Shown here in pieces: positions 57,290 through 63,151 of a stretch of DNA of 64,000 nt. A program made the translations under genes and the position numbers. Source of the stretch: Bacteroidota bacterium. Lineage in GTDB: Bacteria; Bacteroidota; Ignavibacteria; Kryptoniales; JAKASW01. Within the stretch, counting starts at the first letter, position 1; each line of letters opens with the position of its first letter. The stretch spans positions 1-64,000 of the forward strand of contig JAJZVO010000016.1 in NCBI GenBank assembly GCA_021845665.1. The letters run 5' to 3'. Under the pieces are notes generated by a model. It was not told the DNA's origin, searched no databases, and saw nothing but the letters and a program-made list of their open reading frames with translations.

Positions 57290-58363
57290 ATGTTGGGGGA
57301 CGTTATGCTTTCGCATGTTTTCAGCGCGGCGACATACGGCGTTAACGCGTACACAGTCGAAATCGAAACACATGTCGGTGGCGGCGTGTTTGCATGGTAC
57401 ATGGTCGGGCTGCCCGACAACGCGGTGAAAGAGAGTCGTGAGCGGGTGCTGACAGCAATCAAGAATTCGGGACTCAAGTACCCGGGACATCAGATAGTAA
57501 TCAACCTTGCACCCGCGGATATCCGCAAAGAAGGAAGCGCCTTCGATCTCCCGATAGCGATCGGCATACTTTCGGCGTCAGGTTCTTTTGAAATGGCGGA
57601 CCTGGGGAATTTTATCGTTATGGGAGAGCTCGCTCTCGACGGATCTGTCAGGCCGGTGCACGGAGTGTTGCCCGTAGCAGTCGAAGCGAGAGAGAGGGGA
57701 ATACCGGCGATGATCATACCGAAGGGGAACGCGAGGGAAGCAGCGATGGTAGAAGGGGTGAACGTCTACCCTGTCGAGTCGCTTCTCGAAGCCGTGCAGC
57801 TTCTAGGCGGAGAATACAAACTCCTCGAGCCGTTCAGGGTGAACAAGGAAGAGCTGTTCGGCGAGACACACAGGTACCAGTTCGATTTCGCTGACGTGAA
57901 GGGGCAGGAGAACGTGAAGCGAGCTCTCGAAGTCGCGGCCGCGGGTGGACACAACGTGATAATGATCGGTCCGCCCGGGAGCGGGAAGACGATGCTGGCG
58001 AAAAGGCTGCCGACGATACTGCCTGATATGACATTCGAGGAGGCGCTTGAAACGACGAAGATACATTCCGTCGCGGGGATGCTGCCGACGGATGCGGGAC
58101 TCATCGCGACGAGGCCGTTCCGCTCGCCGCATCACACCATTTCGGACAGCGCTCTGGTCGGAGGAGGGACGATACCTAAGCCGGGAGAGATTTCACTGGC
58201 ACATCACGGGGTACTCTTCCTCGATGAGCTTCCCGAGTTCGAGCGGAGCGTCCTCGAAGTTCTTCGCCAGCCGATGGAAGACGGTCACGTGACTATAAGC
58301 CGTACCAGGATGTCGCTCGACTATCCGTCAAAATTCATGCTGTTGGCGGCGATGAACCCATGA
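57290..58363 (+). pseudogene. comM: ComM/YifB-family Mg-chelatase-like AAA+ ATPase, truncated by insertion (start probably 57305)
   Basis: [26 protein letters not shown]...[44 protein letters not shown]; ends [10 protein letters not shown] where the family continues CPCG. Confidence 0.9.
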
Positions 58364-59853
58364 GGTTGTGTTGCCAAAGTGGAGGAATTGAGGGACTGGG
58401 GGATATAGGACAAATGGATTGAGATGTCCTGGCCCGATATGGATATCTTTTCGGTGATGGTTTCGACGATTCTCCGCTTGTCCTCCGGTTCCAGATTTGG
58501 CCATTGGGCGTAGAGGTTCGTTGCTTCGCTCACGATCGCATCGGAAGAGAGGTATTGTATCTTGAGGAAGTCGATCTCTCCCTGTAATTCCGGTATCTGG
58601 TTCTCAAGCTGTTTGAAACGTTCCTCAAGGGGCTTGTAGTGCCGTCCTACGGCTTCCTGGGGCATCGTTCCGTCGAGGTAAAGCCTCATCACCTTGTCCA
58701 TTTCCTCCCGGATTTGGGTTGATTCCTTTATGAGGGTCGCAAGAAGTTCCTCTTTCGCCTTAATCGTCTGATCCGCCTGGCCGAGGTGCTTCGCGATCTC
58801 CTCCGGAGAGAGGAAGAATGCTCTGAGCTGTTCCTGAAAGATGAACTCAAGGTCGGCCGTCCCGATCTTGTTGTGGCACTTGCGGCAGTAGTAGTTGGAT
58901 GATTTCGAGGGGACCGGCATCTTGGTGCCGCACGTCTCGCAGTACACGAGGCCGGAGAAGAGGTGAACCGTCTTCTTCGCCGGAGGTTTTCTCTGGGCCC
59001 GCTGTTCCTCCAGTATTTGGTTGCACTGGTTCCACAGTTCCTCGGATACGATGGGTTCGATCTCGGATAGCACCCACTCCTTCTCGGGCTTCATGACCCA
59101 TTTCTTTCCTTCGCCGAGGCTCTTCGTGTAGTTGGCACGCCGGAGGCCTTTGGCACTCGGATCACGGATGAGCCGGTCGACCGTCGTATCGCTGAACTTC
59201 GAACCGTTCCGCGTCCGGTACCCCGCTTCGTTCAGGAGCCGCGCCACCGTTTTCTTCCGGTGCTCCTGGGCGAATAGCTCATACATATGCTTCCTTACAG
59301 GAGCCTCTTTCGGGTCGGGGACGAGCTTTCGGTCAACCCATCGGTATCCGAAGGGGGCCGCTCCGCCGAGGGGCTTGCCGAGCTTCGCTCGTATGGGAAC
59401 TGAAGCAGCGACCCGCTCCGCTATTTCCGACCGTTCCCATTCGGCCATGGCGGCGATCATGGTGTAGAAGAGGCGGCCGGCTGCCGTCGAAGTGTCGATG
59501 GATTCCTGAAGGGAGATGAGATCGGCACCGTGCTCCTGAAAGAAGTCCGCGAACTCCAGGAGCTCGCGGGTATTCCGCGCAAGCCGCGCGAGCTTCGAGA
59601 ATATGAGACCTGATATGCGGCGGCTTTTTATATCATCCAGCATCCGTTGGGTTTCGGGGTATCCCATGACGGCTTTCCCGCTCATCGCCTCAAGGTGGTA
59701 TACCTCCTTCACATCCCAGCCCTTCGATTCCGCATAGTAGCGGGCGCGCTTCTCGTGGTGTTCGGGGCTTTCGCCTTTGGCCTGGTCTTCGGTCGATACC
59801 CTTATCCAGATGCCGACAGATTTCGCTTCTCCGTTCGATTTCTCGTGAGTCAT
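58321..59853 (-). CDS. Large serine recombinase/integrase
   Basis: [88 protein letters not shown]; zinc ribbon CETCGTKM...[11 protein letters not shown]; coiled-coil C-terminus. Confidence 0.93.
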
Positions 59854-59950: not shown

Positions 59951-61315
59951 ATGAAAGCTTCGCTATTCAATATCTTCACGACAGATTCACGAACCCAAGA
60001 AGTGCTCCTCTTTAACTCTCTATACGGTAGTGTCACAGTGTGGGATAAATCAGAATTTCAACTCGCTGAACGAATTCTGAAAGATCCAGCGGAAAAAGCA
60101 GTTGGTTCATCAGCAAATGTCATTACTGACCAGCTGATAAGAAACAAATACCTTGTGGAAGATGATATAGATGAAATGGAGATCGTCACGAGAAGAAAGC
60201 TCCGTGGAATCGAAGATTCAAACAGACTGGATATCGTTGTAATGCCGAATATGACGTGCAACTTTGCGTGTCCGTATTGCTATGAATCCCATCAACCATC
60301 GGCATTCATGAAAGAAGAGACTGAGCGATCATTGAAGCGATGGCTAACTAAGGAAGTACCAAAATTTAAAGTCCTGTTCGTGAGTTGGTTCGGTGGTGAA
60401 CCGCTCCTTAGTTATGGTCAAATTGTTTCAGTAGGGAGGCACGTCAGGAAGATTTGTGAGCAGCACAATGTTGGACTTCTGATGAATATTACCACCAACG
60501 GTTATCTGTTAAACGAGACGAGGGTAAAAGAACTTACCAAACTTGGATTCTTAAACTATCAGTTCACCGTTGATGGGCCACCGGATGTTCACAACAGGAC
60601 GAGGATCTTGAAGAATGGCAAGGGCACTTTCGCAAGAATTTTCAGGAACATCATGCTTCTTCTTAAAGCCCATGAGGAAGTATTGATATCGCTGAGAGTG
60701 AATTTCAATCACACAAATCTTCATTCAATTCCAGAGCTTCTGCGTCTTTTCCCGGATGGTGTTCGGCCTAGGCTGAAAATCGTTTACGAACCGATTTTCG
60801 GAGAGAAATGCCTGAGTGCCACGGACAATATTCCAAGTGAGGAGATATCGTCCTCGATGATCGAGTATTATCGTCTGGCAAAAGAATTAGGGTATGACGT
60901 CACTATTGGAAACATTGGGACGGGGAAACTGGTCTACTGTTTTGCCGAACGGGAGAATCAATTCGTATTCAACTACAATGGCGATATTTTCAAGTGCACG
61001 GTCAATTCGTTTGGCTCCGAGGCGCGGCTTGGTCATCTGAACGATGATGGGTTGGTTATTCGCGACGAGCAGCAATGGGATAAATGGGTTGGGATGCCGC
61101 TGTTTGAGGAGAAGTGCAAGGGGTGCAAGTTCTTACCGATCTGCATGGGCGGTTGCAGGAAGTCGAGGCTCGAACACGGAACTACTGGCAGCTTCTGTAA
61201 CCTTGTACCTACCAACACCTCATTTGCCTTGAAAGAAATCGCTTTCGGGAAGTTCGATGAGGTGCTCTATAATGTGAACACAACAGATTCAAATCTTCGC
61301 TTTGGCATAGGTTGA
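59951..61315 (+). CDS. Radical SAM/SPASM-domain peptide maturase (RiPP type)
   Basis: MPNMTCNFACPYCYE (CxxxCxxC); SPASM-type cysteines at VYCFAE, DIFKCTVNS and CKGCKFLPICMGGCRKSR...FCN; N-terminal LLFNSLYGSVTVWDK. The track start at 59915 is a TTG; ATG 59951 fits better. Confidence 0.85.
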   Translation: MKASLFNIFTTDSRTQEVLLFNSLYGSVTVWDKSEFQLAERILKDPAEKAVGSSANVITDQLIRNKYLVEDDIDEMEIVTRRKLRGIEDSNRLDIVVMPNMTCNFACPYCYESHQPSAFMKEETERSLKRWLTKEVPKFKVLFVSWFGGEPLLSYGQIVSVGRHVRKICEQHNVGLLMNITTNGYLLNETRVKELTKLGFLNYQFTVDGPPDVHNRTRILKNGKGTFARIFRNIMLLLKAHEEVLISLRVNFNHTNLHSIPELLRLFPDGVRPRLKIVYEPIFGEKCLSATDNIPSEEISSSMIEYYRLAKELGYDVTIGNIGTGKLVYCFAERENQFVFNYNGDIFKCTVNSFGSEARLGHLNDDGLVIRDEQQWDKWVGMPLFEEKCKGCKFLPICMGGCRKSRLEHGTTGSFCNLVPTNTSFALKEIAFGKFDEVLYNVNTTDSNLRFGIG

Positions 61316-61386
61316 CAGCCGATGACTTTGTTTTCAATGAAGCGTTGGTTAAAATATAGGGTGAAATCAAAGAGGAGAATATCGCC

Positions 61387-61527
61387 ATGAAGCTAATTGC
61401 AAAACCGAAGGATGAAAAGAAAATTCTCGCCTCAGTGAGTAAGAAAGCAAGTAAGAAGAAAATCCTCAAAGAGATCGAAGCCAAATCGGAGTGTTGCGTA
61501 AATCACCTCTGTGGCTGTTCCAAATAG
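61387..61527 (+). CDS. 46-aa Cys-rich putative RiPP precursor peptide (not in the ORF track)
   Basis: MKLIAKPKDEKKILASVSKKASKKKILKEIEAKSECCVNHLCGCSK*; RBS AGAGGAG 9 nt upstream; 72 nt after the rSAM stop, same strand. Confidence 0.65.
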   Translation: MKLIAKPKDEKKILASVSKKASKKKILKEIEAKSECCVNHLCGCSK

Positions 61528-61546: not shown

Positions 61547-62242
61547 TCAGTGTTTTCTTCTCCGGGGAGGGTGTGAGTCTGTAAAATCTGAGACCTTTCT
61601 CCAGTATCTGAAAAGAATGCGATTTTCTTTCTGGATCATCTTGCCAATGTTCAGTGGGGTAACTTGTGAGTATTGACAAAAGTAGTAACGCCATATGTTC
61701 TCTTTTGATGGGTTGGTAAGAAGAAACTTCACATGCTTCCAGTGAAAGCTTTGCAAGAAAACCAAGATTCTTGGGTGGTCCGTAAGGTCGTAATTGTTCA
61801 AGACCCAGCGAATGTTCCGAGCCATATACCGCTCCCGCAGATAGATTCTTGCCCACCATAGCCATCCTCTGGGCCCTCGGCGGTACATGTTCCGATGCAG
61901 CGCGTCTGAATAGCGCACAAGTTCGCTTGGAGCATCTACGCTGTAAAGAAAAACTTGGCGGCCATTTTCCCATAGTCTAACGACATTCTCTAAAGTCTTG
62001 ATATCCGATGCAACCCACGGATCAACGCGCGAAATGTCCCTCAGCTTTTTTTGAAGATTTCGGATTGCCTTAAGCGGTTTACTTCCTGGTTTGAACTTAT
62101 TGATTGGCCATGATGGTACATTGGCATCGGACGGATATTCAAAGAGAATGATATCCGGCTTCAATCTCAAAACAGCTCTCGCCTGGCGTAGATCAACTTC
62201 GTTTCCTTCCCGGCAATTGACTTGTGTATATCGTGGGGTCAA
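61547..62242 (-). CDS. Hypothetical protein, possibly TraB/Tiki-superfamily-like
   Basis: VDLRQARAVLRLKPDIILFEYP and LRERYMARNIRWVLNNY...RILVFLQSFHWKHVKFLL resemble TraB/PrgY motifs (PDvvxvEl; ERdxyMAxxi; vvvxGxxH). Confidence 0.4.
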   Translation of the reverse strand: MTPRYTQVNCREGNEVDLRQARAVLRLKPDIILFEYPSDANVPSWPINKFKPGSKPLKAIRNLQKKLRDISRVDPWVASDIKTLENVVRLWENGRQVFLYSVDAPSELVRYSDALHRNMYRRGPRGWLWWARIYLRERYMARNIRWVLNNYDLTDHPRILVFLQSFHWKHVKFLLTNPSKENIWRYYFCQYSQVTPLNIGKMIQKENRILFRYWRKVSDFTDSHPPRRRKH

Positions 62243-62437
62243 CAGTCTTCATGATACTTTCTCATGTGTTTTTTACAAGTGATTATCCCGTTAAACAGCG
62301 CCCATCATAGTCCAATTCATACCGAGATCAGGGGAGGGGCAGAGAAATTGCCCCTTCAGCGAACTTCGCCGCCGTTACGCGCCCGTGGTTCCCCGGATAT
62401 GATGGTCTCCAGTTCATCACAAGAAAGGAGACAAGAA

Positions 62438-63151
62438 ATGGGAATCACGATCCACTATGCAGGGAAGGCGAAAAGCCCTGAGGCAATCGGCGAACTCACG
62501 AAAGTCATATCTGAAAGGGCAGAGGCACTTCATTGGCAATCGAAATCGGTTGACCAGGACCTGAAAGGAAGGTTTTACCCGAGCTGGGGACATGGTTATG
62601 GTTACATCCCTTCGGCTGAGGAATCGAAAAGGAGCAATGTTGAGTTCTTCCCTAAGATGGTCACGCCAGAATGCAACGGCCTCTTCAGGATATTTGACAC
62701 GCAATACGCGGAGGGGATACGGGAAGGCTTCAGTGCCGGACTGTGGCCTAAGTTCAGCATCGACACCCACGTCAGGGGCATCATCCTTTATCCTCACGAG
62801 AAGTGCGAAGAAGTCAGGTTCATCTTCAATATGAAGTCGCTCGACCTCGTACATTATGAATGGTCAGAGAATAACTCAGGCGTCATCCACGGCTATAGCA
62901 CGTGCTGGTCGAAGACCCAGTTCGCCGGATTCAAAATCCATGTCCTTGTTTGTGAGACAATCCGGCTTGCCGAGAAGTACGTCGATTTCTCCATGATCAA
63001 GGACGAAGCGGGATACTACCACACGCGAGACCTCATGGTCGGCATCAAGAACTTCAACGAGATGTTGTCGTCGATAAAGAAGATGGAAAAGTTCCTGAAC
63101 GAGATTGGCAAGAACTTCGGGTTGCGGGCGACGATGGGGGATAGTGAATAG
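62438..63151 (+). CDS. Conserved-looking hypothetical protein (MGITIHYAGK N-terminus)
   Basis: RBS AAAGGAGA 8 nt before ATG 62438, 237 codons, perfect-stem terminator directly downstream. The track start at 62264 lies in non-coding sequence. Confidence 0.65.
   Translation: MGITIHYAGKAKSPEAIGELTKVISERAEALHWQSKSVDQDLKGRFYPSWGHGYGYIPSAEESKRSNVEFFPKMVTPECNGLFRIFDTQYAEGIREGFSAGLWPKFSIDTHVRGIILYPHEKCEEVRFIFNMKSLDLVHYEWSENNSGVIHGYSTCWSKTQFAGFKIHVLVCETIRLAEKYVDFSMIKDEAGYYHTRDLMVGIKNFNEMLSSIKKMEKFLNEIGKNFGLRATMGDSE

Follow-up and report, generated by a model that had tools for sequence, protein, structure and literature searches.

Gene Pair at the Locus

The window, a stretch of 64,000 nucleotides from a Bacteroidota genome, carries two adjacent genes that together form a unit of 1.6 kb on the plus strand. 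The first (59951..61315, plus strand) encodes a radical SAM/SPASM peptide maturase of 454 aa (P0001), recognized by its radical SAM and SPASM motifs, its NCBIfam and Pfam matches and its position in a tree. The second (61387..61527, plus strand) encodes a peptide of 46 aa (P0002), MKLIAKPKDEKKILASVSKKASKKKILKEIEAKSECCVNHLCGCSK, which was assigned as a RiPP precursor from its homologues beside three radical SAM relatives and from its pN/pS contrast. The start of the maturase was set at ATG 59951 and not at the upstream TTG 59915, because an M1-K2-x-S4 beginning is common to its relatives. A first-pass annotation had described a radical SAM ORF with CNFACPYC and SPASM-like cysteines, followed by a 46-codon ORF with a strong ribosome-binding site. 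Both ORFs lie where it had placed them, the set of SPASM cysteines proved complete, and a Shine-Dalgarno-like AGAGGAG precedes the ATG of the peptide. The intergenic gap, given there as 72 nt, is 71 nt when recounted from the stop codon of the radical SAM gene. A scan for promoters and terminators gave counts close to the shuffled expectation. Two further ORFs lie by the peptide (61547-62242, minus strand, 231 aa; 62264-63151, plus strand, 295 aa); neither matched any NCBIfam model, nor any Pfam model above its cut-off.

The radical SAM [4Fe-4S] motif CNFACPYC (60257..60280, plus strand; C103/C107/C110) falls in a PF04055 match (Pfam, 9.4e-17). The SPASM auxiliary-cluster cysteines, C330 to C416 (60938..61198, plus strand), follow the pattern C330-x13-G-x4-C349, C389-x2-C392-x5-C398-x3-C402 and C416, and the region matches TIGR04085 with 53.1 bits for a cut-off of 27. 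The CxxxCxxC motif and all seven SPASM cysteines are invariant across the four enzymes of the family described below.

Residues 1-95 of the maturase (59951..60235, plus strand) are predicted to bind the leader. Modelled alone with AF2, they gave a pLDDT of 88 and the order beta-beta-beta-alpha-alpha-alpha. The top seven PDB folds retrieved by Foldseek, individually weak (E 0.017-0.27), were all RiPP enzymes or RRE proteins and included TigE, TbiB1 with leader, CteB and lasso B1 with leader. Pfam gave no PqqD match in the maturase. The modelled structure thus supports an RRE-like fold for this N-terminal domain. CteB (PDB 5wgg, 5why) is the closest solved enzyme by sequence (2.1e-21). It also ranked first by fold with the full-length AF2 model, but as this model is weak (pLDDT 56), the full-length fold matches only back up the sequence result.

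Homologues and Selection on the Peptide

Relatives were sought at the protein level in a scan with a single genome for each GTDB species, and by a scan of IMG/VR. The first gave two enzymes close to that of the window, one in a Methanoperedens MAG (L006, 58% identity over the aligned protein) and one in a Chitinophagaceae MAG (L007, 45%), and the second gave a third one on a phage contig (L008, 50%). In all three, a homologous peptide, 53-59% identical, lies directly 3′ of the radical SAM gene. Counterparts of the peptide thus occupy the equivalent position in three unrelated genomes, with E-values from 4e-29 to 5e-21. The peptide of the phage contig was recovered at E 5e-21 with a profile built from the other three peptides, its radical SAM gene having been found independently, and the peptide profile gave one match per genome or record, beside the radical SAM gene, in 4/4 cases. 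The first-pass annotation had proposed a leader/core precursor with its cognate maturase, and had suggested a search for peptide homologues next to related radical SAM genes and an analysis of coding conservation; the conserved arrangement at 4/4 loci bears out this proposal, and so does codon divergence. In the peptide, synonymous divergence is near saturation (pS 0.73-0.84) and non-synonymous divergence is low (pN 0.22-0.28), which indicates purifying selection in the peptide frame. The other two forward frames lack such a contrast.

Taken together, homologues and codon divergence indicate that the peptide is a selected gene tied to the radical SAM enzyme. The small ORF could also be read as a chance reading frame by an orphan radical SAM enzyme, for which its small size alone would speak. 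This reading is already refuted by the conservation at equivalent places in three unrelated genomes, to which purifying selection and the Shine-Dalgarno-like sequence are added, and we give it practically no credence. Three traits that mark radical SAM/SPASM RiPP systems in the broad sense were found: an enzyme with CxxxCxxC and SPASM motifs beside a short precursor, an RRE domain (modelled), and a conserved precursor that co-occurs with the enzyme. The pair, the selection on it, its sporadic spread and its radical SAM and SPASM motifs are therefore regarded as established at the level of sequence.

Of the four members of the family, two or more come from MAGs and one from an unplaced viral contig. 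No fifth member was found when the peptide profile was run on 396, 396 and 298 genomes sampled from two phyla (the first two samples belong to the same phylum and overlap), when the radical SAM profile was run on Methanoperedenaceae (35 genomes) and Chitinophagaceae (326 genomes), by tblastn of the peptide against plasmids and phages, or in three further scans of viral contigs. Several candidates were set aside. The weak profile matches L048, L049, L052 and L053 have no small Cys-rich ORF bearing the leader motif; L047 contains CVDHLCGC in a reading frame that has no radical SAM gene beside it and was attributed to chance; L090-L093 have only a common short motif.

In a tree of 20 sequences, the four enzymes form one clade (support 100/100, stem 0.87), within which the window enzyme is nearer to the archaeal and phage copies than to the Chitinophagaceae copy. 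The clade thus joins members from Methanoperedens, Chitinophagaceae, a phage and the window, which argues for horizontal spread. The host phylum, which is probably that of the Chitinophagaceae MAG, since two phylum searches gave the same decoy places, does not explain this enzyme tree.

Leader and Core of the Peptide

The leader part of the peptide (residues 1-33; 61387..61485, plus strand) opens with an MKxIxxPK start, a motif common to related precursors. Among the four peptides this start reads M[K/R][L/V]I.[K/R]PK, and in L006, where the N-terminus is longer, a few residues precede it. A start of the form MKx(I/V)xxP is also common to the Clo7bot precursors annotated by NCBI (MKFIKKP, for MKLIAKPK in the window peptide) and to a second radical SAM peptide family of the host genus, and the CefA record, beginning MQYLVQP, matches it in part. 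A leader start common to precursors of such diverged maturases suggests a common docking mode. There is no GG leader site in the peptide.

The core part (residues 34-46, SECCVNHLCGCSK; 61486..61524, plus strand) is nearly unchanged across the family, with the consensus [E/Q]-[C/Y]-C-V-[N/D]-H-L-C-G-C. Variation in core codons 35-44 is confined to E/Q35, C36/Y and N39/D, and C37, V38, H40, L41, C42, G43 and C44 are invariant in the four peptides. The core had been noted before as C-C-x5-C-x-C, which is a miscount, ECCVNHLCGC being C-C-x4-C-x-C. The earlier description of a four-cysteine end holds insofar as all cysteines lie in the last 11 residues; only C37, C42 and C44 are invariant, however, as the first cysteine is a tyrosine in one relative. 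An N/D-x-x-C spacing is present in 4/4 cores, and the Cys-x3-Asp motif of PapA (PMC9413430) is absent.

Comparison with Known Maturase Families

The best NCBIfam match of the enzyme is the Clo7bot maturase CtpM (TIGR04334; 219.8 bits, E 5e-65), for which the cut-off of 600 was missed. Clo7bot resembles the present pair also in the precursor start quoted above, but its arrays hold many peptides of 41-53 aa with cysteines along the whole chain, together with an ABC transporter, whereas a single peptide with all its cysteines at the C-terminal end, and no recognized transporter, was found here. The second and third matches, TIGR04463 (197 bits, cut-off 525) and CefB (NF038107; 188.9 bits, cut-off 600), also fell short. 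CefA is likened to the window peptide by its start, but its record is nearly 680 aa long with a cysteine at about every fifth residue. The geopeptide maturase model TIGR04280 was missed as well (173.4 bits, cut-off 400).

The SCIFF maturase CteB is the nearest structure and has the same plan of RRE, radical SAM domain and two-cluster SPASM domain. However, the SCIFF model TIGR03974, with a cut-off of 425, was matched at 85 bits, and the peptide here has four cysteines (three of them invariant), for six in about 45 residues in SCIFF. PapB (NF047865), the SPASM maturase of freyrasin, is comparable in that aspartate is a possible acceptor (PMC9413430), but its model was matched at 99.2 bits for a cut-off of 340, and the Cys-x3-Asp/Glu motif is missing from the peptide. 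Lower still were CcpM, a Cys-rich peptide maturase (TIGR04068; 69.9 bits, cut-off 500), and the sactipeptide maturase model StsB (49.8 bits, cut-off 625). The enzymes of L006, L007 and L008 likewise remained under all NCBIfam maturase cut-offs. Membership of the named maturase families is thus ruled out by the curated NCBIfam cut-offs, and the peptide itself has no family match. The named maturases nearest to the enzyme (Clo7bot, TIGR04463, CefB) all make, or pair with, Cys-rich peptides.

A second radical SAM RiPP family was found in the host genus, in the genome of the window and in at least 4 of 12 congeners (L002, L037-L040). It resembles the present family by its MK[IVM][IV]VxPK start, by a short Cys-containing C-terminus and by a peptide placed just 3′ of the radical SAM gene. 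Its enzyme, however, is only 28% identical and falls in a separate 100/100 clade, and its peptides, MK[IVM][IV]V.PKV...NCxxCNxxxC with a short tail, have a different core, NCxxCNxxxC. In the window's genome, a sigma-54 activator-like ORF lies upstream of this second pair (L002:1254-2733, on G000:C17).

Proposed Chemistry

In ranthipeptides, a cysteine forms a thioether to a non-alpha carbon, and in sactipeptides to an alpha carbon; related SPASM enzymes also form C-C or C-O bonds. We interpret the pair, with a probability of roughly 0.8, as a minimal RiPP cassette in which the leader docks on the RRE, the core receives a Cys-thioether and the product has no dedicated export gene. The radical SAM enzyme very probably cross-links the peptide. 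The Lys-rich leader would dock, via its M[K/R]x(I/V)xxPK start, on the N-terminal recognition domain of the maturase. The radical SAM cluster would then cleave SAM, and the resulting 5′-deoxyadenosyl radical would abstract a hydrogen from a residue of the C-terminal core. A core cysteine held at a SPASM auxiliary cluster would close the thioether, of presumed type and position, and the product would finally be released from the leader.

The likeliest acceptor would be the beta carbon of Asn/Asp39 and the likeliest donor Cys42. This N/D-x-x-C arrangement recalls NxxcA of Streptococcus orisratti, a different host, in which a single C-beta thioether links Asn20 and Cys23; both Asn and Asp are known ranthipeptide acceptors, Asp being the acceptor in freyrasin (PMC8326336). 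A thioether between Cys42 and Asn/Asp39 is our best guess for the main bond, held at somewhat less than even odds, the parallel with NxxcA being one of spacing alone. Cys37, Cys44 and His40 may take part in a second bond or in metal binding. With CteB as the nearest solved enzyme and the N/D-x-x-C core, the class leans toward ranthipeptide-like, a bond type being invisible in sequence.

The same pair might carry out another chemistry, such as a C-C or C-O cross-link (for example a cyclophane on His40/Leu41) or another oxidation, with the cysteines serving as metal or redox ligands (C-x2-H-x-C-x-C). His40 and Leu41 are indeed invariant alongside the cysteines, the solved RiPP relatives (CteB, TigE, SkfB, SuiB) are chemically diverse, and models of cyclophane-forming maturases occur among the weaker NCBIfam matches. 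We nevertheless consider this unlikely, as Clo7bot, TIGR04463, CefB, geopeptide and PapB all score above the cyclophane families and the core has no conserved Trp, Tyr or Phe. An unnamed, ranthipeptide-like family carried as a two-gene mobile cassette appears to be the best reading.

Integration Site and Mobile Contexts

The pair adjoins a gene for a large serine recombinase of 510 aa (58321..59853, minus strand), with domain matches to resolvase, recombinase and, weakly, a zinc ribbon, which is likely the integrase of the host element. Among NCBIfam models, the recombinase matches CcrB best (149.8 bits, under cut-off). The junction lies where the 5′ part of comM (Mg-chelatase-like; 57290..58363, plus strand) is broken by the element after ...LLAAMNP. 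The recombinase ORF ends in codons (58321-58363, minus strand) that run through comM sequence in antisense, so that the integration site dictates the C-terminus of the protein. The comM gene is intact across this point in the congeners L067, L068, L071 and L072; in another congener (G007), a nearly identical recombinase end sits at this comM codon, and a further one (G003) has a different insert. A 3′ half of comM was located on another contig of the window's genome (C126:7473-7958), where element sequence lies ahead of it; there are other partial copies as well. The earlier suggestion that the pair is cargo of an integrated element, here a recombinase element in comM, is thus supported by the adjoining recombinase and the split gene.

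Within the host genus, comM behaves as an integration hotspot, the same or different inserts being found after the codon ...AAMNP. Extra 3′ comM fragments (G000:C126:7123-7958, G000:C50:5741-6467, and G007:C21, C34 and C31) look as if elements had piled up, as in SCC cassettes. Past the window, on the same contig, lie genes for a T4SS coupling-protein-like ATPase, a PD-(D/E)XK (Cas4/RecB-like) nuclease, a SymE-like protein and a DUF932 protein (G000:C102:65735-69978), which point to an element of plasmid or ICE type that spans 15 kb or more. Further on, downstream of where the element starts (G000:C102:70319-73064), are a MurG-like glycosyltransferase gene and then a gene for a radical SAM/SPASM protein, whose best NCBIfam match is the geopeptide maturase (81 bits).

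The pair has a G+C content of 0.439, for 0.518 in the window, and in L006 and L008, too, it exceeds its surroundings in A+T. In L006 it adjoins transposase genes of archaeal insertion sequences. In L007 it lies in a defence island, where a CRISPR array of 29 repeats with a 4TM effector gene flanks it on one side and a JetA gene on the other. This array (L007:1-2010) has repeats of about 35 nt at a spacing of 67-73, and cas genes were not seen on the short contig. In L008 the pair is located between two tail-type genes of the phage contig, in opposite orientation. The island of the window also bears the PD-(D/E)XK nuclease and the SymE-like gene.

Possible Function

No exporter, C39 or other leader peptidase, or immunity gene was recognized in the four neighbourhoods, of about 8-14 kb each; we infer that the product acts intracellularly or uses host export. 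The spread of the pair with mobile DNA suggests that it confers a portable benefit, for which phage defence or superinfection exclusion is our leading guess.

An exported bacteriocin or signal leaving through host exporters would agree with the ABC or peptidase-ABC transporters that adjoin Clo7bot and the Bacteroidota relatives of the enzyme, and with the report of SCIFF-derived ranthipeptides in quorum sensing (PMC8326336). We find this doubtful, given that the four loci have no recognizable gene for a transporter, a C39 peptidase or immunity and that the peptide has no GG leader site.

The finished peptide could instead be an intracellular agent against phages or of superinfection exclusion, the cassette then being a two-gene defence module, which is compatible with the minimal RiPP cassette preferred above. 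The defence island of L007, the moron-like placement in L008 and the nuclease and SymE-like gene in the recombinase island of the window are in line with this idea. There is also a precedent, since anti-phage lanthipeptides have been reported, as have radical SAM RiPP clusters close to defence systems (PMC12715929). However, recognized defence genes occur at 1/4 loci only, and islands gather any cargo. PADLOC, moreover, returned weak and partial viperin-like matches that lie in the generic radical SAM core. A defence role is therefore put forward tentatively and at well under even odds. In its broadest form, the idea would be that of a mobile, export-free radical SAM module shared among a phage, bacteria and an archaeon; its cross-linked product, rich in Cys and His, would work inside the cell to counter phages or rival elements. 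We regard this as speculative and rather improbable; if true, such a module would be the radical SAM counterpart of the reported anti-phage lanthipeptides.

Judged from its sequences, this is a genuine radical SAM/SPASM RiPP family with four known members and no name in the curated models used. The pair thus adds an enzyme-peptide family of two genes, of a size that can be tested directly. Its near-invariant C-V-[N/D]-H-L-C-G-C core and its cross-family leader start are targets for studies of bond chemistry and leader recognition. Also, its occurrence in mobile, defence and phage settings, with no recognized export or immunity gene, raises the question of whether some radical SAM RiPPs may act intracellularly, possibly in conflict with phages.
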